Of a DNA stretch of 64,000 bases, positions 48,901 through 60,619 are shown piece after piece; position 1 is the first letter of the stretch; each line of letters starts with the position of its first letter. Where the stretch lies: contig NW_026252101.1 of the NCBI RefSeq assembly GCF_025399195.1, forward strand, positions 310,001 to 374,000. Direction: 5' to 3'. A model generated the notes under the pieces. It saw nothing but the letters and a program-made list of their open reading frames with translations. It searched no databases and was not told the origin of the DNA. Source of the DNA: Umbelopsis ramanniana AG. Taxonomy: Eukaryota > Mucoromycota > Umbelopsidomycetes > Umbelopsidales > Umbelopsidaceae. The position numbers and the translations under genes are program-made.

Positions 48901-49857
48901 CTCTTTCTGATCTTATTTTACGCTTAAGATTTTATGAATACAGTTTCGGGCGAAACTGTAAAGGAATTGAAATGCCCACAGTGTCGCATTAGATTCAATG
49001 AACATCACCTCATACCAATTGAAATATTCCAAGAAGTGCACAATCCACACTTTAAGAAGGCTGAAAAACCGGATAAGGATATTGCTGTGATGAAACCAAA
49101 AGATTTTGTATCCAGTACCAAAATCGATACCATGTTGCAGATTCTGGCCAAAACAAAGGAAGAAAGCAATGGAAAAGACAAGACGATCATCTTCACTCAA
49201 TTCACGAACATGCTTGATCTCATTGAAAAGCCATTGAAGACCGCAGGTTATAAATTTGTTCGATACGATGGCTCATTAAATGTGAAGGCGAAAAACAACG
49301 CAGTGCAAACTTTGCGAAATGATCCCGATACGACCATCATGCTCACATCCACTAAGTGTGGATCACTGGGTCTCAACTTGACAGCTGCCAATAGGGTGAT
49401 TGTATGTGCCAGCAGTAACTTTCTTACAACTTTTCATTTGGAGATTTTCTAATTCTTCTTCCTCTAGCTTCTGGATATTTGGTGGAATCCTGCTCTTGAG
49501 AATCAAGCTATCGATAGGTATGTTTTGATATGGATTACAGCTTGCCTTGATATATGTAATATCTAACCGCTAGGACCATCGTATACAGAGTTCATCGAAT
49601 TGGCCAAACGAAAGACGTAGAAGTCCATCGAATTTTAGTGAAAGACACTATCGAGGACAAGATTGTAGACTTGCAAAACAAGAAACAGGTGAGCCTAAGA
49701 AATAAGAAACGATGTTACTATTATGGATTTCTCGCTAATGGGTTGTTATCTCTGCAACATTTAGGCTATTGCTGATTCCGCATTGAACGCTGGTGCCACC
49801 AAAGAATTTAGTAGACTTGGTATTAATGAACTACTTCATCTTTTCCGAGGACCTTAA
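45945..49857 (+). CDS. ULS1: Uls1-like SNF2 translocase with RING finger
   Basis: Chromatin/DNA translocase of the Rad5/16-Uls1 group, linked to SUMO-conjugated substrates. Fourteen exons: 45945-47111, 47182-47515, 47585-47672, 47742-47801, 47870-47938, 48010-48109, 48170-48200, 48269-48465, 48533-48715, 48779-48860, 48929-49401, 49468-49517, 49574-49688, 49765-49857; 1,013 residues. Helicase motifs: DMGLGKT (384-390), LVVCPVSLIYQW, VVLDEAH (531-537), LTATPIQN, then in the C-lobe STKCGSLGLNLT and RVHRIGQTKDVEVHR. A C3HC4 RING sits between the lobes from residue 744 (CPICMD...CGHSFCQEC...CPQC). The disordered N-terminus carries VIDLTT at about 173, a SUMO-interacting-motif-like sequence. Donor of intron 9 is GTTGGC, weak but the only one that keeps frame into the RING. 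Confidence 0.9.
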
Positions 49858-54795: not shown

Positions 54796-56720
54796 TTATT
54801 CAGCTTTAGATCCTTCATCCTCTTCTTGGCCGATCTTCAGCTTGTTTTCAACAGCGGTGGACAGTTCGTCCTCGACTTTAGGTGTAGCTTCTAAATTGTC
54901 ATTGTCGCCATAGTAAGGCTGCTGAGTGTTTGGGTATTGTGCAAAGCTATAGAGAAGAATAACAGGAATAGTTGATGAGGCAGCTGAGCAATTGATTGGT
55001 ATCGATAAATTTCAGTTGAAACTTACTTTGCTTGAGACAGGTACGCAGGATTGCCTCCTGGGGGTGCGTTGGCTGGATTATTGGACGCAAAGCCGAGCAT
55101 TGTTTCAGGAGTCATAGGCATTTGCATAGGTCTAGCAGTAAAGCCTGCCATAGGTTGGAAATCTCGGGCTCTCCACACACGCTTGCGAGCTGTCTGGCCC
55201 TTGAGGCGCTTTTGTGCCAAGGAGTCAGCAAATCGAACCTGCAGAGGGACATTGCTCCCAGGCAAGGTATGTCCGTTGAATGTCTCGATAACGGATATCG
55301 CAGCAGAACGATCAGTCATTCTAAGAGATCCACAATTAGACTAATGCTATTTCTAAATAGTTTGATAGAGTATACGAAAATATATACCTTGCAAAGCCAA
55401 CACCTCGACTAAGACCTGTTTGAGGGTCTCTTAGAATTCTGTTGGAGACCGTATGGTAAGGCTTGAACATTTCTTCGAGTTGCTATGGTACAGTTATGTG
55501 AAATGGTGAAATAGGTACGTGTTTTAAAATATGGAATGTTTATACTTACAGGCTCATTCATGGTAGGAGGTAAATTGGAGACATAGATATTGGCAGATGT
55601 CTCGTCTTGTAGACTTCGAAGACGGGCACTGAATGATTCCTATAACGGGGCGCAAGAGAGACGTAAGCATTTTGTTCGTAAAGAGCGACAACCACAGGTT
55701 ATCAATGTTTACCTGTCCAACCCTGGCGAAAGAGGCCTGGAGTCCGTTTCGATTGAGACCTTCGATAGCGCGTTGTGCCTCATCTTCGTTCTCAAACATA
55801 GCGAATCCATAACCCTTACATTCACCAGTCTTCTGCTCTATAATAGCCTTGGATGAAGCGATGGCGCCATAGCTAAGAAAGAGTTGTTTAGTACAGTGCG
55901 TCAACGGTTTGCTACAAGCATGCGCATTCACTTACGGGCTACACATGTCTGCAAATGCCTCATCTGTGGTGGTTGAATCAAGTCCACGAACGTAAATATT
56001 ATGGGTATGAAATTGATTACTTTGTTGCAGTTGCTGCAGTTGCTGCAGTTGCTGCTGCTGTTGTTGGTCAGGTTGATTCGCTCGTCTTTGGGATGTAGAA
56101 GAACCAGAGCCAGTGGATCGTGTTCCCGTGTTGTTGAAAGGGCCAGGAAGACGCTGCATCATTTGATGAGGTGGTGATCCTGGAGCTGAGTTGGTACCAG
56201 TCAGCACGGGTGAAGAAAGGTGCAATGGTGGGAAGTGTTGCCCTGGCGGCAATACGAAGGCGTGTGTGGGTGGCGACATTGACATACCACCTTGTTGAAA
56301 CTGGAATGTCGGGGTAAACGGAGGGCTATTAGGATTGAGCGGCGGTGATTGCGGATGCATGGCGGGAGAACCAGGGTAGCTTTGGTAGCCACTCATAAAG
56401 TCTGGATAGTACTGCATCGTGAATTGCGGACTGAGCGGGTAGATATACGCTCCAAACGATGGGTCAGAAGGGTCATATCCACTAGCGACAGCTTGGTCAT
56501 ACGCGTACTGAGCTGTAATAGGATCGACGTATCCAAACGCGAAAGGTGGATAAGCAGGAGATGTAGGTGGAGGAATGTTACGATCATCGTGTTCGGCCTG
56601 TCGGTGTTGCTGAGAAGGACCATCTTGTCGGTCTGAATTGTCAGCAGGCTTTACATTTTGCTTCTCTGTTTCAATTTGAGTTTGTTCCGGATTAGCCGTG
56701 GCAGTTTGTGGGTTGGTCAT
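54796..56720 (-). CDS. RBMS/MSSP-like two-RRM RNA-binding protein
   Basis: Exons 56720-55936, 55872-55713, 55639-55550, 55482-55388, 55320-55027, 54946-54796; 524 residues. A long Pro/Gln/Ser-rich N-terminus contains a Gln tract. RRM1 begins at about residue 245 (NIYVRGLDSTTTDEAF) with RNP1 KGYGFAMFE. RRM2 begins at about residue 332 (NIYVSNLPPTMNEP) with RNP1 RGVGFARM. The tandem order, the CKGYGFAMF and SRGVGFARM signatures, and the segment VRFADSLAQKRL after RRM2 match the RBMS/MSSP family of RNA and single-stranded DNA binding proteins. Its targets in fungi are unknown. Acidic C-terminus. Confidence 0.86.
56022..56066. repeat. CAG/CTG tract encoding polyglutamine
   Basis: Repeated ttgctgcag units that encode a Gln-rich stretch just before RRM1 of the RBMS-like protein (read on minus). 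Confidence 0.8.
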
Positions 56721-57126
56721 GTTGAATTGATAGAACAGTGTTTATCAGAATGGCAGGTAATTCGTGATGGCTAGATTTCAACAATGCTCGATAAACTATT
56801 ATTCGTCTCCAGAACTCCCAGCGGAATCTAAGCGAGTTTTGCTGGTAAAGTTGACTAGAATGTCTGTTGTGAGAAGTGAAAAGGTAATTAAAGGCAGCTG
56901 ATTGTTGTAAACGGAAGGAAAGCGCCCAAGCTAAGAGATGCTGTTAATAACAAACGAAAAAAAATAAGGCGAGTGACCTGGACGAGAACAGGTCATCAAC
57001 TTCAGATGAGTTACACCGGCAAATCCTCATATGGAAATAGGCCAGGTGGCCCAGTTCAGATTTGCAGCAACGACAAAAAATTCTCTATCCAAAAAAACAA
57101 ATATACTACAACGTCAACCTCGTACT
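56721..57126. other. divergent promoter region
   Basis: 406 bases between the RBMS-like and shugoshin starts. An in-frame ATG at 57031 could extend the shugoshin N-terminus. Confidence 0.5.
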
Positions 57127-57763
57127 ATGACGGACCAGAAGCACCAAAGTAAGTCCTGGATGCTACAGCTCTATTTCGTTCATGCTGCTGTTCGCTGTTT
57201 ACTTATTTTGTTAGTTCAAGACTCATACGTCCAACAGAATCTCGATTTAGCGCGGTAATACCAAGGCGATAGCCACAAGTTGTACATGCCAAAAAAATCC
57301 AGCGTCCTGATTGTAATTTCACAGGATAAATGCCTTCTATTTGAACCGAATTCATACACTGGAAAAAGAAGTTGAATACCTTCAATGCGAAAACCTGGAT
57401 CTACGAGCGTTGCTAGCTCAAAGTCGTCAAATTCCACATGCTCAAAAAATCCAGGGCCCGCCGAAGGGTAAGGTAATACTAATTTTGTAAGGGCATTTTC
57501 AACTATGTTTAATTCGATTTATAGTTTTAAAGGAAAATCTCCCAAAAGTAATATAAATTATATTTTATAATATTTTATTGTAATTTATTAATTTTATTTT
57601 AATCATTTAGAGAATTAAAAGATATTCTGCGCGTCCTAATTATGTACTTCCAAGCCTAAAAAAGTTAATAATTTATATTATATCAGTATTTGCTTAAAAT
57701 TTATAACTAATTATAGGATTTGTTAGAAAATTGAGAAAGGGTGATTCATTCACATTCAAATAA
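57127..57763 (+). CDS. SGO1: minimal shugoshin
   Basis: Protects centromeric cohesin by recruiting PP2A and the chromosomal passenger complex. Six short exons: 57127-57148, 57215-57254, 57325-57467, 57525-57547, 57611-57663, 57727-57763; 105 residues. Residues 8-56 form the shugoshin N-terminal coiled coil (QQNLDLARRINAFYLNRI then LEKEVEYLQCENLDLRALL). The C-terminal basic SGO motif is complete: RIKRYSARPNYVLPSLKK followed by KLRKGDSFTF at the very end. All five introns are GT-AG, 57-71 bases, three of them very AT-rich, and every junction keeps frame. An in-frame ATG at 57031 would give 137 residues; I prefer 57127, which has A at -3. Typical shugoshins are several hundred residues; here the middle is nearly absent. 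Confidence 0.8.
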
Positions 57764-58038: not shown

Positions 58039-60619
58039 ATGTTCAATCGTGTACGAGGTATCCGCTTGTTTACACAAGTGCAAAAGAGCCGATCCCGTGC
58101 TTTGTGCAGATCTGTAGTGAACTCTGCTTTTCATACTCTTCCTTTAGGTCAGTGTCTTTCTTTTTGCTTGCCATATTTCTTCGGTGTGTTTACTAACTCG
58201 TTGATTTGATCTTCATAACTCAGTAGCAGCAACAAGTAGTATTGTATCATCTAATAGAGGCTACTATTTGGATGGTGTCTTAGACAAACGTGGTTTTGTC
58301 GCATTTACCCCCGGTGTACGGCATGCGAGTACTTCTACTGGCGAAGAAGCCTTAACCTCTACCACCGTGGATGCACACTTGCAAGCATCAGTAGACGCAT
58401 TAGATCTTCATGGAGCGATGGATATAATTGAACAAGCTCATAGCCGTGGTCTTGTTCAACCACATCACTACCGACAAGTTTTTCGTATACTGGAATCAGA
58501 TGTTGTACCTGATTTCGCAAGCCTCTCACGTATTGCTCGGTGGTTTACATCCTCACAGCCAGTACATCTGAACACGGCAACTCCAGAAGAATTAAATCTT
58601 TGGAAAAGCGCTATCAAAGCTTGTTTTAAGCTTGGCAGATCTCATTTCAGTCGAGACTTAAGCGGTTTATTACAAGCCTTTGCGTCTCGCGCAAAGCTCG
58701 ACCAAGTTGTTGATGCCGATCTTTGGGGTATCGTACTTCGGGTAATGTTGCAAAACAGAGACACTCTTCTATTATCTCTGTACTGATAATTTTTTTAGGG
58801 ATACGGTATTCTGAAACAAGAAGACATGATCGATGCCACCATTGCCAAAATTCCCGCTGATGTAGATTGCCAAGACTACATACCAATGGCATATGCGTCC
58901 GCTGGAGCTCATGGCAAAGCAGATGTATATTTAGACAGACTCATCGAATTGAGGATCCCGAAACCCGAAGTCTTCAAAGTTTTGTCCAAAACTGCTGCAT
59001 ATGAAGGTGACGTACAGCGTGTCAAGAAAATTGCCTCCATGGGCACAGAACTACTGGATGGAGTAAGCTTTGATCAGGATGTCATCTTGGCGCACAAAAC
59101 GAGATTATTTCATCTTTTGAAAAAGCAAAACCCAAGCACAAGTTATTCCGGCAGGAACAACAGTGGCATACTCAGTGAGGAACTGAAGGAATCCAGACGA
59201 GAGTGCGAAGAGCTGATGTCAAACATGCTTTCAGACCGATACCCATTAGACATATCCTCTGCCAATATCATTCTTGATTACCTGACCTTTGGTAATCGCC
59301 TGGATCACGCCAAGTTTCCCATGGCCCATGCCCGTGACATCCTTGAAAATGTTTTACCTACAAAGGGCATTCAACCAAACTTTCAATCCTATTTCCTTGT
59401 TCTGAGAGGATATGCCAAGACTAGGGAGCTGGATTCACCACGACACAATGCCAGATTAGACAAATGCCTGGAGTTGTTTTATATGATGGAAAACGCCGGT
59501 TTCCATAGTCATCAACATGCAAAATTCCAATGTCTTTTCGAAGCATGTTTGCCACACTCGGACCGATATAACTACGATTTGTTCCAGTCAAAAAGTAGAT
59601 TGGCACCAACACTCCAAAGTAGCGTTGCTCGCCACAATGCCCCGTATGTGGACCCACGTATATTTGACATTGAACGTATAATGCTAGACTCCAATATCCG
59701 CCATGACCGGATCACCATCAAGACTGTCTTGACATGCTTAGGAGTCAGTGGGCTCTATGGGGCCATGTGGAGAAGATGGAAGGAACTACAACTTGCAGGA
59801 GTGCGACGTGATGGTGGACTGTTTGAGAGGATCTTTTCACTCGCGGCATTGGAACCCGAGCAAGCCCAGTATGCTCTTGCTGTTGTTCATCATCAGCTGG
59901 AAAGAGAAACTCCGAAAATTGAGATGACTATGCCTCTATACCGATCCATTATCGATTGTTGTATAACGGCTCAAGACGCCGTCAGTGCCACTTCAGTATT
60001 ACACACTGCAGGTGTTGACAATCTGCCATCTCCTGAAAAGCTCTCTAGTCCTCAAGAGAAACAACTAAAGAAGCTTGGGCTTAAAGCACAATTAGGTATT
60101 AGATCATTGACTGGATCAATTGGCACCCACTTGAAGGACATGATGGACTTGCAAGTTTCACCCAAAAGCGACATGTGGTTGATGCTCATGTCTCATGCTG
60201 TAGAGACACAGTTTTCATTGCAAGATGCACAACGTGTATTCAATGGATTCACAATGTCAAGGTTTGAAAAGACAGGCAAAATTCCCGTCCCTGCACATGA
60301 GCAGTCGCCGATCATTCCATTCCCTTCTTCGCCTTATAACGAAACGGATGTTCTAATGATCGATATGTTCGTTTCTGCTTTGCTCAAGTCACAAAACATT
60401 CCGGTCATCAGAGATGTATTGGAAACGTATGGAGAACAATCTTCAAAATTATGGCTCTCTCGCGATTCTGTCAAACAATTTGTCACTTTAGCTAAGGAGG
60501 AGAAGAGCGATGACGATGTCAAATGGATTGTTGAGAAAATTCTTCCAAAAGTATCTGGTCAATCATCAAATTACAGACATTGGATGCGCAAACTTCAACG
60601 ATCTGTAGACAATCTTTGA
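58039..60619 (+). CDS. mitochondrial PPR-like helical repeat protein
   Basis: Exons 58039-58147, 58224-58741, 58799-60619; 815 residues. The N-terminus is Arg/Ser-rich without acids (MFNRVRGIRLFTQVQKSRSR), a mitochondrial presequence. The body is built of paired helices of pentatricopeptide type, for example YIPMAYASAGAHGKADVYL and PNFQSYFLVLRGYAK followed by LELFYMMENAG. Such proteins bind organellar RNA for splicing, stability or translation. The repeats are degenerate and I cannot name an orthologue or RNA target. No catalytic domain seen. Convergent with the next gene, only 95 bases between stop codons. Confidence 0.72.

Follow-up and report, generated by a model that had tools for sequence, protein, structure and literature searches.

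A putative, unusually short and intron-rich shugoshin gene in Umbelopsis ramanniana

Gene structure at 57127-57763

We analysed a 64,000-nt stretch of Umbelopsis ramanniana DNA (the window) in which, between an inferred divergent RRM gene and a PPR-type gene, the plus strand can be read as a small candidate gene for shugoshin, the protein that protects the attachment of sister chromosomes to each other (Table 1). The initial annotation had described six small exons encoding 105 residues, and the same assembly was recovered here: splicing 57127-57763 left an open frame of 318 coding bases (105 residues plus a stop), with all five introns running from GT to AG. The predicted protein begins with MTDQKHQ, continues through a coil and a linker, and closes with an SGO motif. 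Its predicted pI is 9.95, and the majority of the SGO1 proteins listed in PMC5134366 have a pI of 9 or more.

Table 1. Coordinates of the candidate gene's exons and introns, and of the flanking genes, within the window
Feature	Position	Strand	Remarks
Divergent RRM gene, inferred first exon	55932-56720	-	RRM match itself in the adjoining frame 55557-55931
Exon 1	57127-57148	+	Start codon; MTDQKHQ; alternative start at the in-frame ATG 57031
Intron 1	57149-57214	+	66 nt, GTAAGT..TTAG; in frame and stop-free; retention would add 22 residues
Exon 2	57215-57254	+	Coiled coil of the Shugoshin_N type, first part, QDSYVQQNLDLAR; Y12 and N16
Intron 2	57255-57324	+	70 nt, GTAATA..ACAG
Exon 3	57325-57467	+	Most of the coiled coil, ending near residue 53 (57421), then the linker's first part
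Intron 3	57468-57524	+	57 nt, GTAAGG..ATAG; alternative is a 138-nt intron, 57473-57610, skipping exon 4
Exon 4	57525-57547	+	23-nt microexon, VLKENLPK; uncertain
Intron 4	57548-57610	+	63 nt, GTAATA..TTAG; AT-rich
Exon 5	57611-57663	+	First part of the SGO motif, RIKRYSARPNYVLPSLKK
Intron 5	57664-57726	+	63 nt, unusual donor GTTAAT; acceptor is the second of the AGs that follow a branch-like CTAAT
Exon 6	57727-57763	+	Closes the SGO motif (KLRKGDSFTFK) and carries the stop; contains K95
PPR-type gene	58039-60619	+	Type taken from the domains of relatives; the window frame itself has no Pfam match

Since the RRM gene starts at 56720 on the minus strand and the PPR gene near 58039 on the plus strand, the candidate cannot extend far either way. 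The inferred first RRM exon carries a glutamine run (QQQQQQLQQLQQLQQ). The PPR neighbour was 92% identical to a U. ramanniana protein, 66% to one from U. nana and 62% to one from U. isabellina, and no shugoshin was found fused to any of these three PPR proteins. The U. ramanniana PPR record (731 aa) starts, at MDSQLQ, further along the sequence than those of U. nana and U. isabellina (814 and 848 aa); its annotated start looks wrong, because the N terminus of these relatives resembles the window's codons from about 58039 on.

The lengths of the candidate's introns (57-70 nt) are near those of nine B56 introns that we measured in two genes of the same genome (60-82 nt). Donors of ten B56 introns, read by eye, comprised nine GTA, one GTG and no GTT. 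Introns 4 and 5, in the 3' half of the gene (57548-57726), are very AT-rich; introns 1 and 2 are not. If the nearer AG were used as the acceptor of intron 5, the protein would end in KKIC, and the match to Shugoshin_C was then lost.

The exact product can be read in several ways. It had been stated that no open frame longer than one exon marks the gene, which proved incorrect: exon 1, intron 1 and exon 2 share an open frame at 57031-57258. Further freedom lies in the linker, where 21 GT..AG routes join the coil to the motif and leave a stretch of 16-37 residues that starts at A52 and stops just short of N86 (34 in the route originally drawn). The most credible of these are a six-exon route, in which the introns measure 57 and 63 nt, and one of five exons, with a single 138-nt intron and 99 residues. 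The six-exon model thus stands in that its spliced frame is open, but its 23-nt exon 4 is not forced. Over all combinations of start, intron retention and route, the product ranges from 87 to 162 residues.

We regard it as possible, if somewhat doubtful, that the gene is a real shugoshin with another product, namely one that starts at 57031 (32 more residues), retains intron 1 (22 more) or lacks the microexon (99 residues); this explanation overlaps with our preferred reading of a real, short shugoshin gene. The extension from the in-frame ATG 57031 is basic (pI 11.7), and a peak of positive charge before the helix is described as usual in shugoshins (PMC5134366), but this ATG has a C at -3 whereas ATG 57127 has an A. 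Likewise, the frame through intron 1 is open, but the intron has a full GTAAGT donor, and the spread of linker routes leaves room for a five-exon version whose 138-nt intron, however, exceeds every one of the nine measured B56 introns. A home-made gene finder, which gave implausible donors or too few introns, did not predict this gene, and scans for bacterial promoters and terminators and for tRNAs returned nothing useful on the locus.

The coil and the SGO motif

The first of the two conserved blocks, the N-terminal coil, was recognised by the Pfam profile Shugoshin_N (PF07558), as the initial annotation had led us to expect: the 105-residue model scored 33.4 bits against a curated cut-off of 30, over residues 9-50 and profile positions 2-43 of 45. 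The score was 19.8 bits for exon 3 by itself and rose to 36 bits once the coil was joined (residues 8-53), so exon 2 contributes real signal and the junction of exons 2 and 3 is needed. No match at E ≤ 10 was obtained with any of 40 shuffles that preserve the hydrophobic/polar pattern, a count to be read with the HMMER filters in mind, which remove most weak matches.

When the whole genome (22.8 Mb) was searched in six frames, exon by exon, none of the ten scored Shugoshin_N candidates passed the cut-off. The best of them (25.9 bits) sits in a long coiled-coil frame, and exon 3 of the locus itself was among the ten (18.5 bits). Judged by eye, the other nine and two genomic matches to Shugoshin_C comprised long coiled coils, frames of bZIP-like type, one Yta7-like AAA frame and noise. 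A short coil frame (L012 1501-1578, C3, minus strand; KAKIEEISEELQRLLSENEAFRAQLS) gave a sub-threshold Shugoshin_N match of 16.2 bits as a 63-residue piece; it may be an Ndc80 exon.

The second block, the SGO motif (PF07557), forms the C terminus (NYVLPSLKKKLRKGDSFT). Here the profile result was mixed: the Pfam Shugoshin_C match lies below the cut-off (15.4 against 23.3 bits) and covers the second half of the profile (positions 12-24 of 24), and the C-terminal piece alone still reached only 17.7 bits. With a matrix built from the 16 motif sequences of Table 3 in PMC5134366, on the other hand, the reading SARPNYVLPSLKKKLRK ranked first. Its score was 18.0 bits and the 16 training motifs score 34.5-46.3, so the motif would be a divergent member. 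When the 500 nt that follow exon 3 were shuffled 300 times with dinucleotides preserved, every shuffle fell below 18.0 (best 10.9, median -4.7). The first rank is out of about 1.94 million readings, drawn from both strands of the whole window with one intron allowed and counted over overlapping chunks, spliced readings being prefiltered on six columns. The runner-up, a spliced reading at an unrelated place in the window (RTIVYRKQVSLRNKKR, 49572-49715, plus strand), reached 17.2 bits, and the motif by itself is therefore not overwhelming.

Beyond the end of the matrix, the sequence continues with GDSFT, resembling the GDPFT of human and mouse SGOL1; this likeness was spotted afterwards and entered no score. 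A degenerate DNA pattern for K-L-R-K-G-D, likewise chosen post hoc, had a single match in the window and none in 100 shuffles. No more than about 220 nt separate the end of the coil from the start of the motif, and the two blocks stand in the expected order, with the motif at the C terminus.

These results bear on the alternative that there is no shugoshin here, and that selective splicing on paper has joined a small coiled-coil protein to a basic stretch unrelated to it. Many GT..AG pairs do give a choice, and the runner-up, a chance place in the window, reaches 17.2 bits with the motif matrix. We nevertheless find this explanation very unlikely, given that the coil passes a curated cut-off and its match was gone in 40 of 40 shuffles, that the motif lies close behind the coil in the right order and above 300 of 300 regional shuffles, and that the GDxFT extension agrees with vertebrate SGOL1 although the matrix does not include it. 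Together, a coil above the Pfam cut-off and a top-ranked motif uphold the proposal of a shugoshin reduced to coil and SGO motif. We consider it probable, from sequence comparison, that the locus holds a real, unusually short and intron-rich Umbelopsis shugoshin gene, with a product of about 99-105 residues.

By counting along Table 3 of PMC5134366, K95 in KLRKGD corresponds to human K492, the lysine of KLRR, and to position 298 of S. pombe Sgo1. Human Sgo1-K492A is reported to be deficient in H2ApT120 binding (PMC11182772), and K382 of C. neoformans is reported to be needed for phospho-H2A binding (PMC11774493); we infer that K382 occupies the same motif column as K492. According to a review, the SGO motif is required for interaction with phosphorylated H2A, and the coil allows the protein to dimerise and to associate with PP2A and/or the CPC (PMC4301718). 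The lysine needed for phospho-H2A binding is kept in the candidate as K95, and the binding itself is predicted.

The initial annotation had also spoken of PP2A/CPC binding. In the best match to the human Sgo1 coil that uses no gaps, human Y57 and N61 are kept as Y12 and N16, and six further residues are changed (N60 to Q, K62 to L, L83 to E, K87 to C, Y90 to L and C94 to A). This alignment serves residue mapping only, since it does not outdo shuffles, 6337 of 10000 of which attain its score. Human SGO1 N61I is reported not to bind PP2A (PMC5460030), and L83, K87, Y90 and C94 are given as contacts of human Sgo1 with B56 (PMC8256288). As cohesion protection is described as still intact when the B56 side of that contact is mutated (PMC8256288), its loss need not be fatal. 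PP2A binding by the coil is plausible: the matches at Y12 and N16 speak for it, but the six changes and an alignment short of significance do not. CPC binding found no support. The first 130 residues of human Sgo1 (AKER tail plus coil) are described as its main CPC-binding region, and the AKER tail as conserved in most higher vertebrates (PMC9253516); the predicted protein begins with MTDQK, and this N-terminal tail is absent.

Relatives and pathway partners

A protein-database search with the 105-residue product returned no relative at E ≤ 10 (3 candidates), nor did a search with X filler between the domains among candidates of about 200-637 residues (19 candidates). Since the database includes U. 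ramanniana, U. nana and U. isabellina proteins, these null results carry meaning, within the limits set by shared 5-residue words, length classes and 90% clustering. A short shugoshin is probably absent from the annotated Umbelopsis proteins, in agreement with the earlier suspicion that automatic annotation had missed the gene. Among viral contigs, 16 pattern matches contained no relative. Searching solved structures with the spliced protein matched no shugoshin; the one match was a chorismate mutase (E = 0.82). Moreover, we noticed no shugoshin of similar size, and none from Umbelopsis, in the parts of the shugoshin literature available to us.

In its own genome, the spliced protein found this locus only. 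No second shugoshin, and so none of the longer paralogues whose existence had been raised, was detected with the protein, Shugoshin_N or Shugoshin_C, in searches that read exon by exon and have low sensitivity for split exons; the Shugoshin_C profile failed to list even this locus. This sensitivity leaves some room for a different explanation, in which the locus is a decayed shugoshin remnant and a working shugoshin lies elsewhere, too divergent or too split to be seen. The extreme shortness of the candidate and the unusual GTTAAT donor of intron 5 would fit decay, an exon-by-exon search could miss a second split gene, and another weak Shugoshin_N match does exist in L012. We judge decay unlikely, however, since the frames of all six exons remain open, the two conserved blocks are still intact and the functional lysine is kept, and since none of the ten genomic Shugoshin_N candidates passes the cut-off, the others being, by eye, generic coils, bZIP-like or Yta7-like AAA frames, or noise.

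Partners expected of a shugoshin were matched in the genome. There are two B56 genes (L015, C1; L016, C58) and two H2A genes ending in LLPKKTKKVGASQEL, in which the Bub1 threonine is kept, plus one weaker H2A-type C terminus. Two genes carry a Mad3/BUB1 region; one of them has a protein kinase domain further along the same strand, and is therefore likely Bub1. The second (L035, C39:98500-105500) adjoins frames that resemble arsenic-handling genes by eye. Kleisin N-terminal matches, one strong and one weak (L032, C34; L034, C33), and INCENP-like matches (L039, C87; L040, C65) were each found at two places, as was B56. Genome searches for BIR (survivin) and chromo-shadow (HP1) domains gave no match, which with split exons is not proof of absence. 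Bub1 with its kinase, H2A with the Bub1 threonine, B56 and kleisin are thus likely present as partners, which is supporting and not defining for the candidate.

With these partners, the short shugoshin could act as follows. Bub1 would phosphorylate the threonine in the H2A tail (LLPKKT), and this phospho-H2A mark would be bound at centromeres by the SGO motif, by way of K95 and the basic residues around it. The coil would dimerise and recruit PP2A-B56, which would keep cohesin (Rec8/Rad21) dephosphorylated and so protected until the sisters should part. The regulatory middle of the protein would have been lost. Expression, splicing, dimerisation, every binding step and the status of sole shugoshin are all parts of this scheme that we infer, the individual binding steps less surely than the gene. 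Tentatively, and with rather less confidence than in the gene itself, we propose that this is the organism's only shugoshin and a working one, in which about 100 residues suffice to place phospho-H2A reading and phosphatase recruitment some 25-30 residues apart. If this is true, the long central region of well-studied shugoshins is dispensable for centromeric protection.

Comparison with known shugoshins

Shugoshins vary greatly in length and in their middle, and their essential parts have usually been probed with artificial truncations. A natural protein of coil and SGO motif would give a minimal working unit for the protection of centromeric cohesion, of a size that would allow structural study of the entire protein together with a phospho-nucleosome. 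It would also illustrate that split, tiny genes can escape automatic annotation and be counted as missing when the kinetochore network is surveyed. What is new is probably the extreme shortening, the plan of an N-terminal coil and an SGO motif being already known.

The 32 published shugoshins in Table 1 of PMC5134366 span 306-1265 residues, and the candidate product is about one third of the shortest among them; the rank of smallest working shugoshin, raised in the initial annotation, goes beyond what this comparison supports. At the lower end stands Caenorhabditis SGO1 with 306-307 residues; it has the same two-domain plan (PMC5134366, Tables 1 and 2), yet is still about three times the candidate's length. 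Human SGOL1 has 561 residues (PMC5134366, Table 1), and the candidate lacks both its AKER tail and its central region. Shared with vertebrate SGOL1 are the lysine at the K492 position and, in the best gapless coil alignment, tyrosine and asparagine at the Y57 and N61 positions; the KLRRGDPFT of human and mouse and the KLRKGDSFT found here agree at 7 of 9 positions (PMC5134366, Table 3). S. pombe Sgo1 and Sgo2 (319 and 647 residues; PMC5134366, Table 1) are three to six times longer and have a central region, whereas the gap between coil and motif is about 25-30 residues here. They nonetheless follow a common plan with the candidate, an N-terminal coil and a C-terminal NY..P.L..KLR motif, and the motif core NYVLPSLKKKLRK is identical at 8 of 13 positions both to that of Sgo1 (NYAIPSLRTKLRR) and to that of Sgo2 (NYALPGLRTKLRR), as given in Table 3 of PMC5134366.
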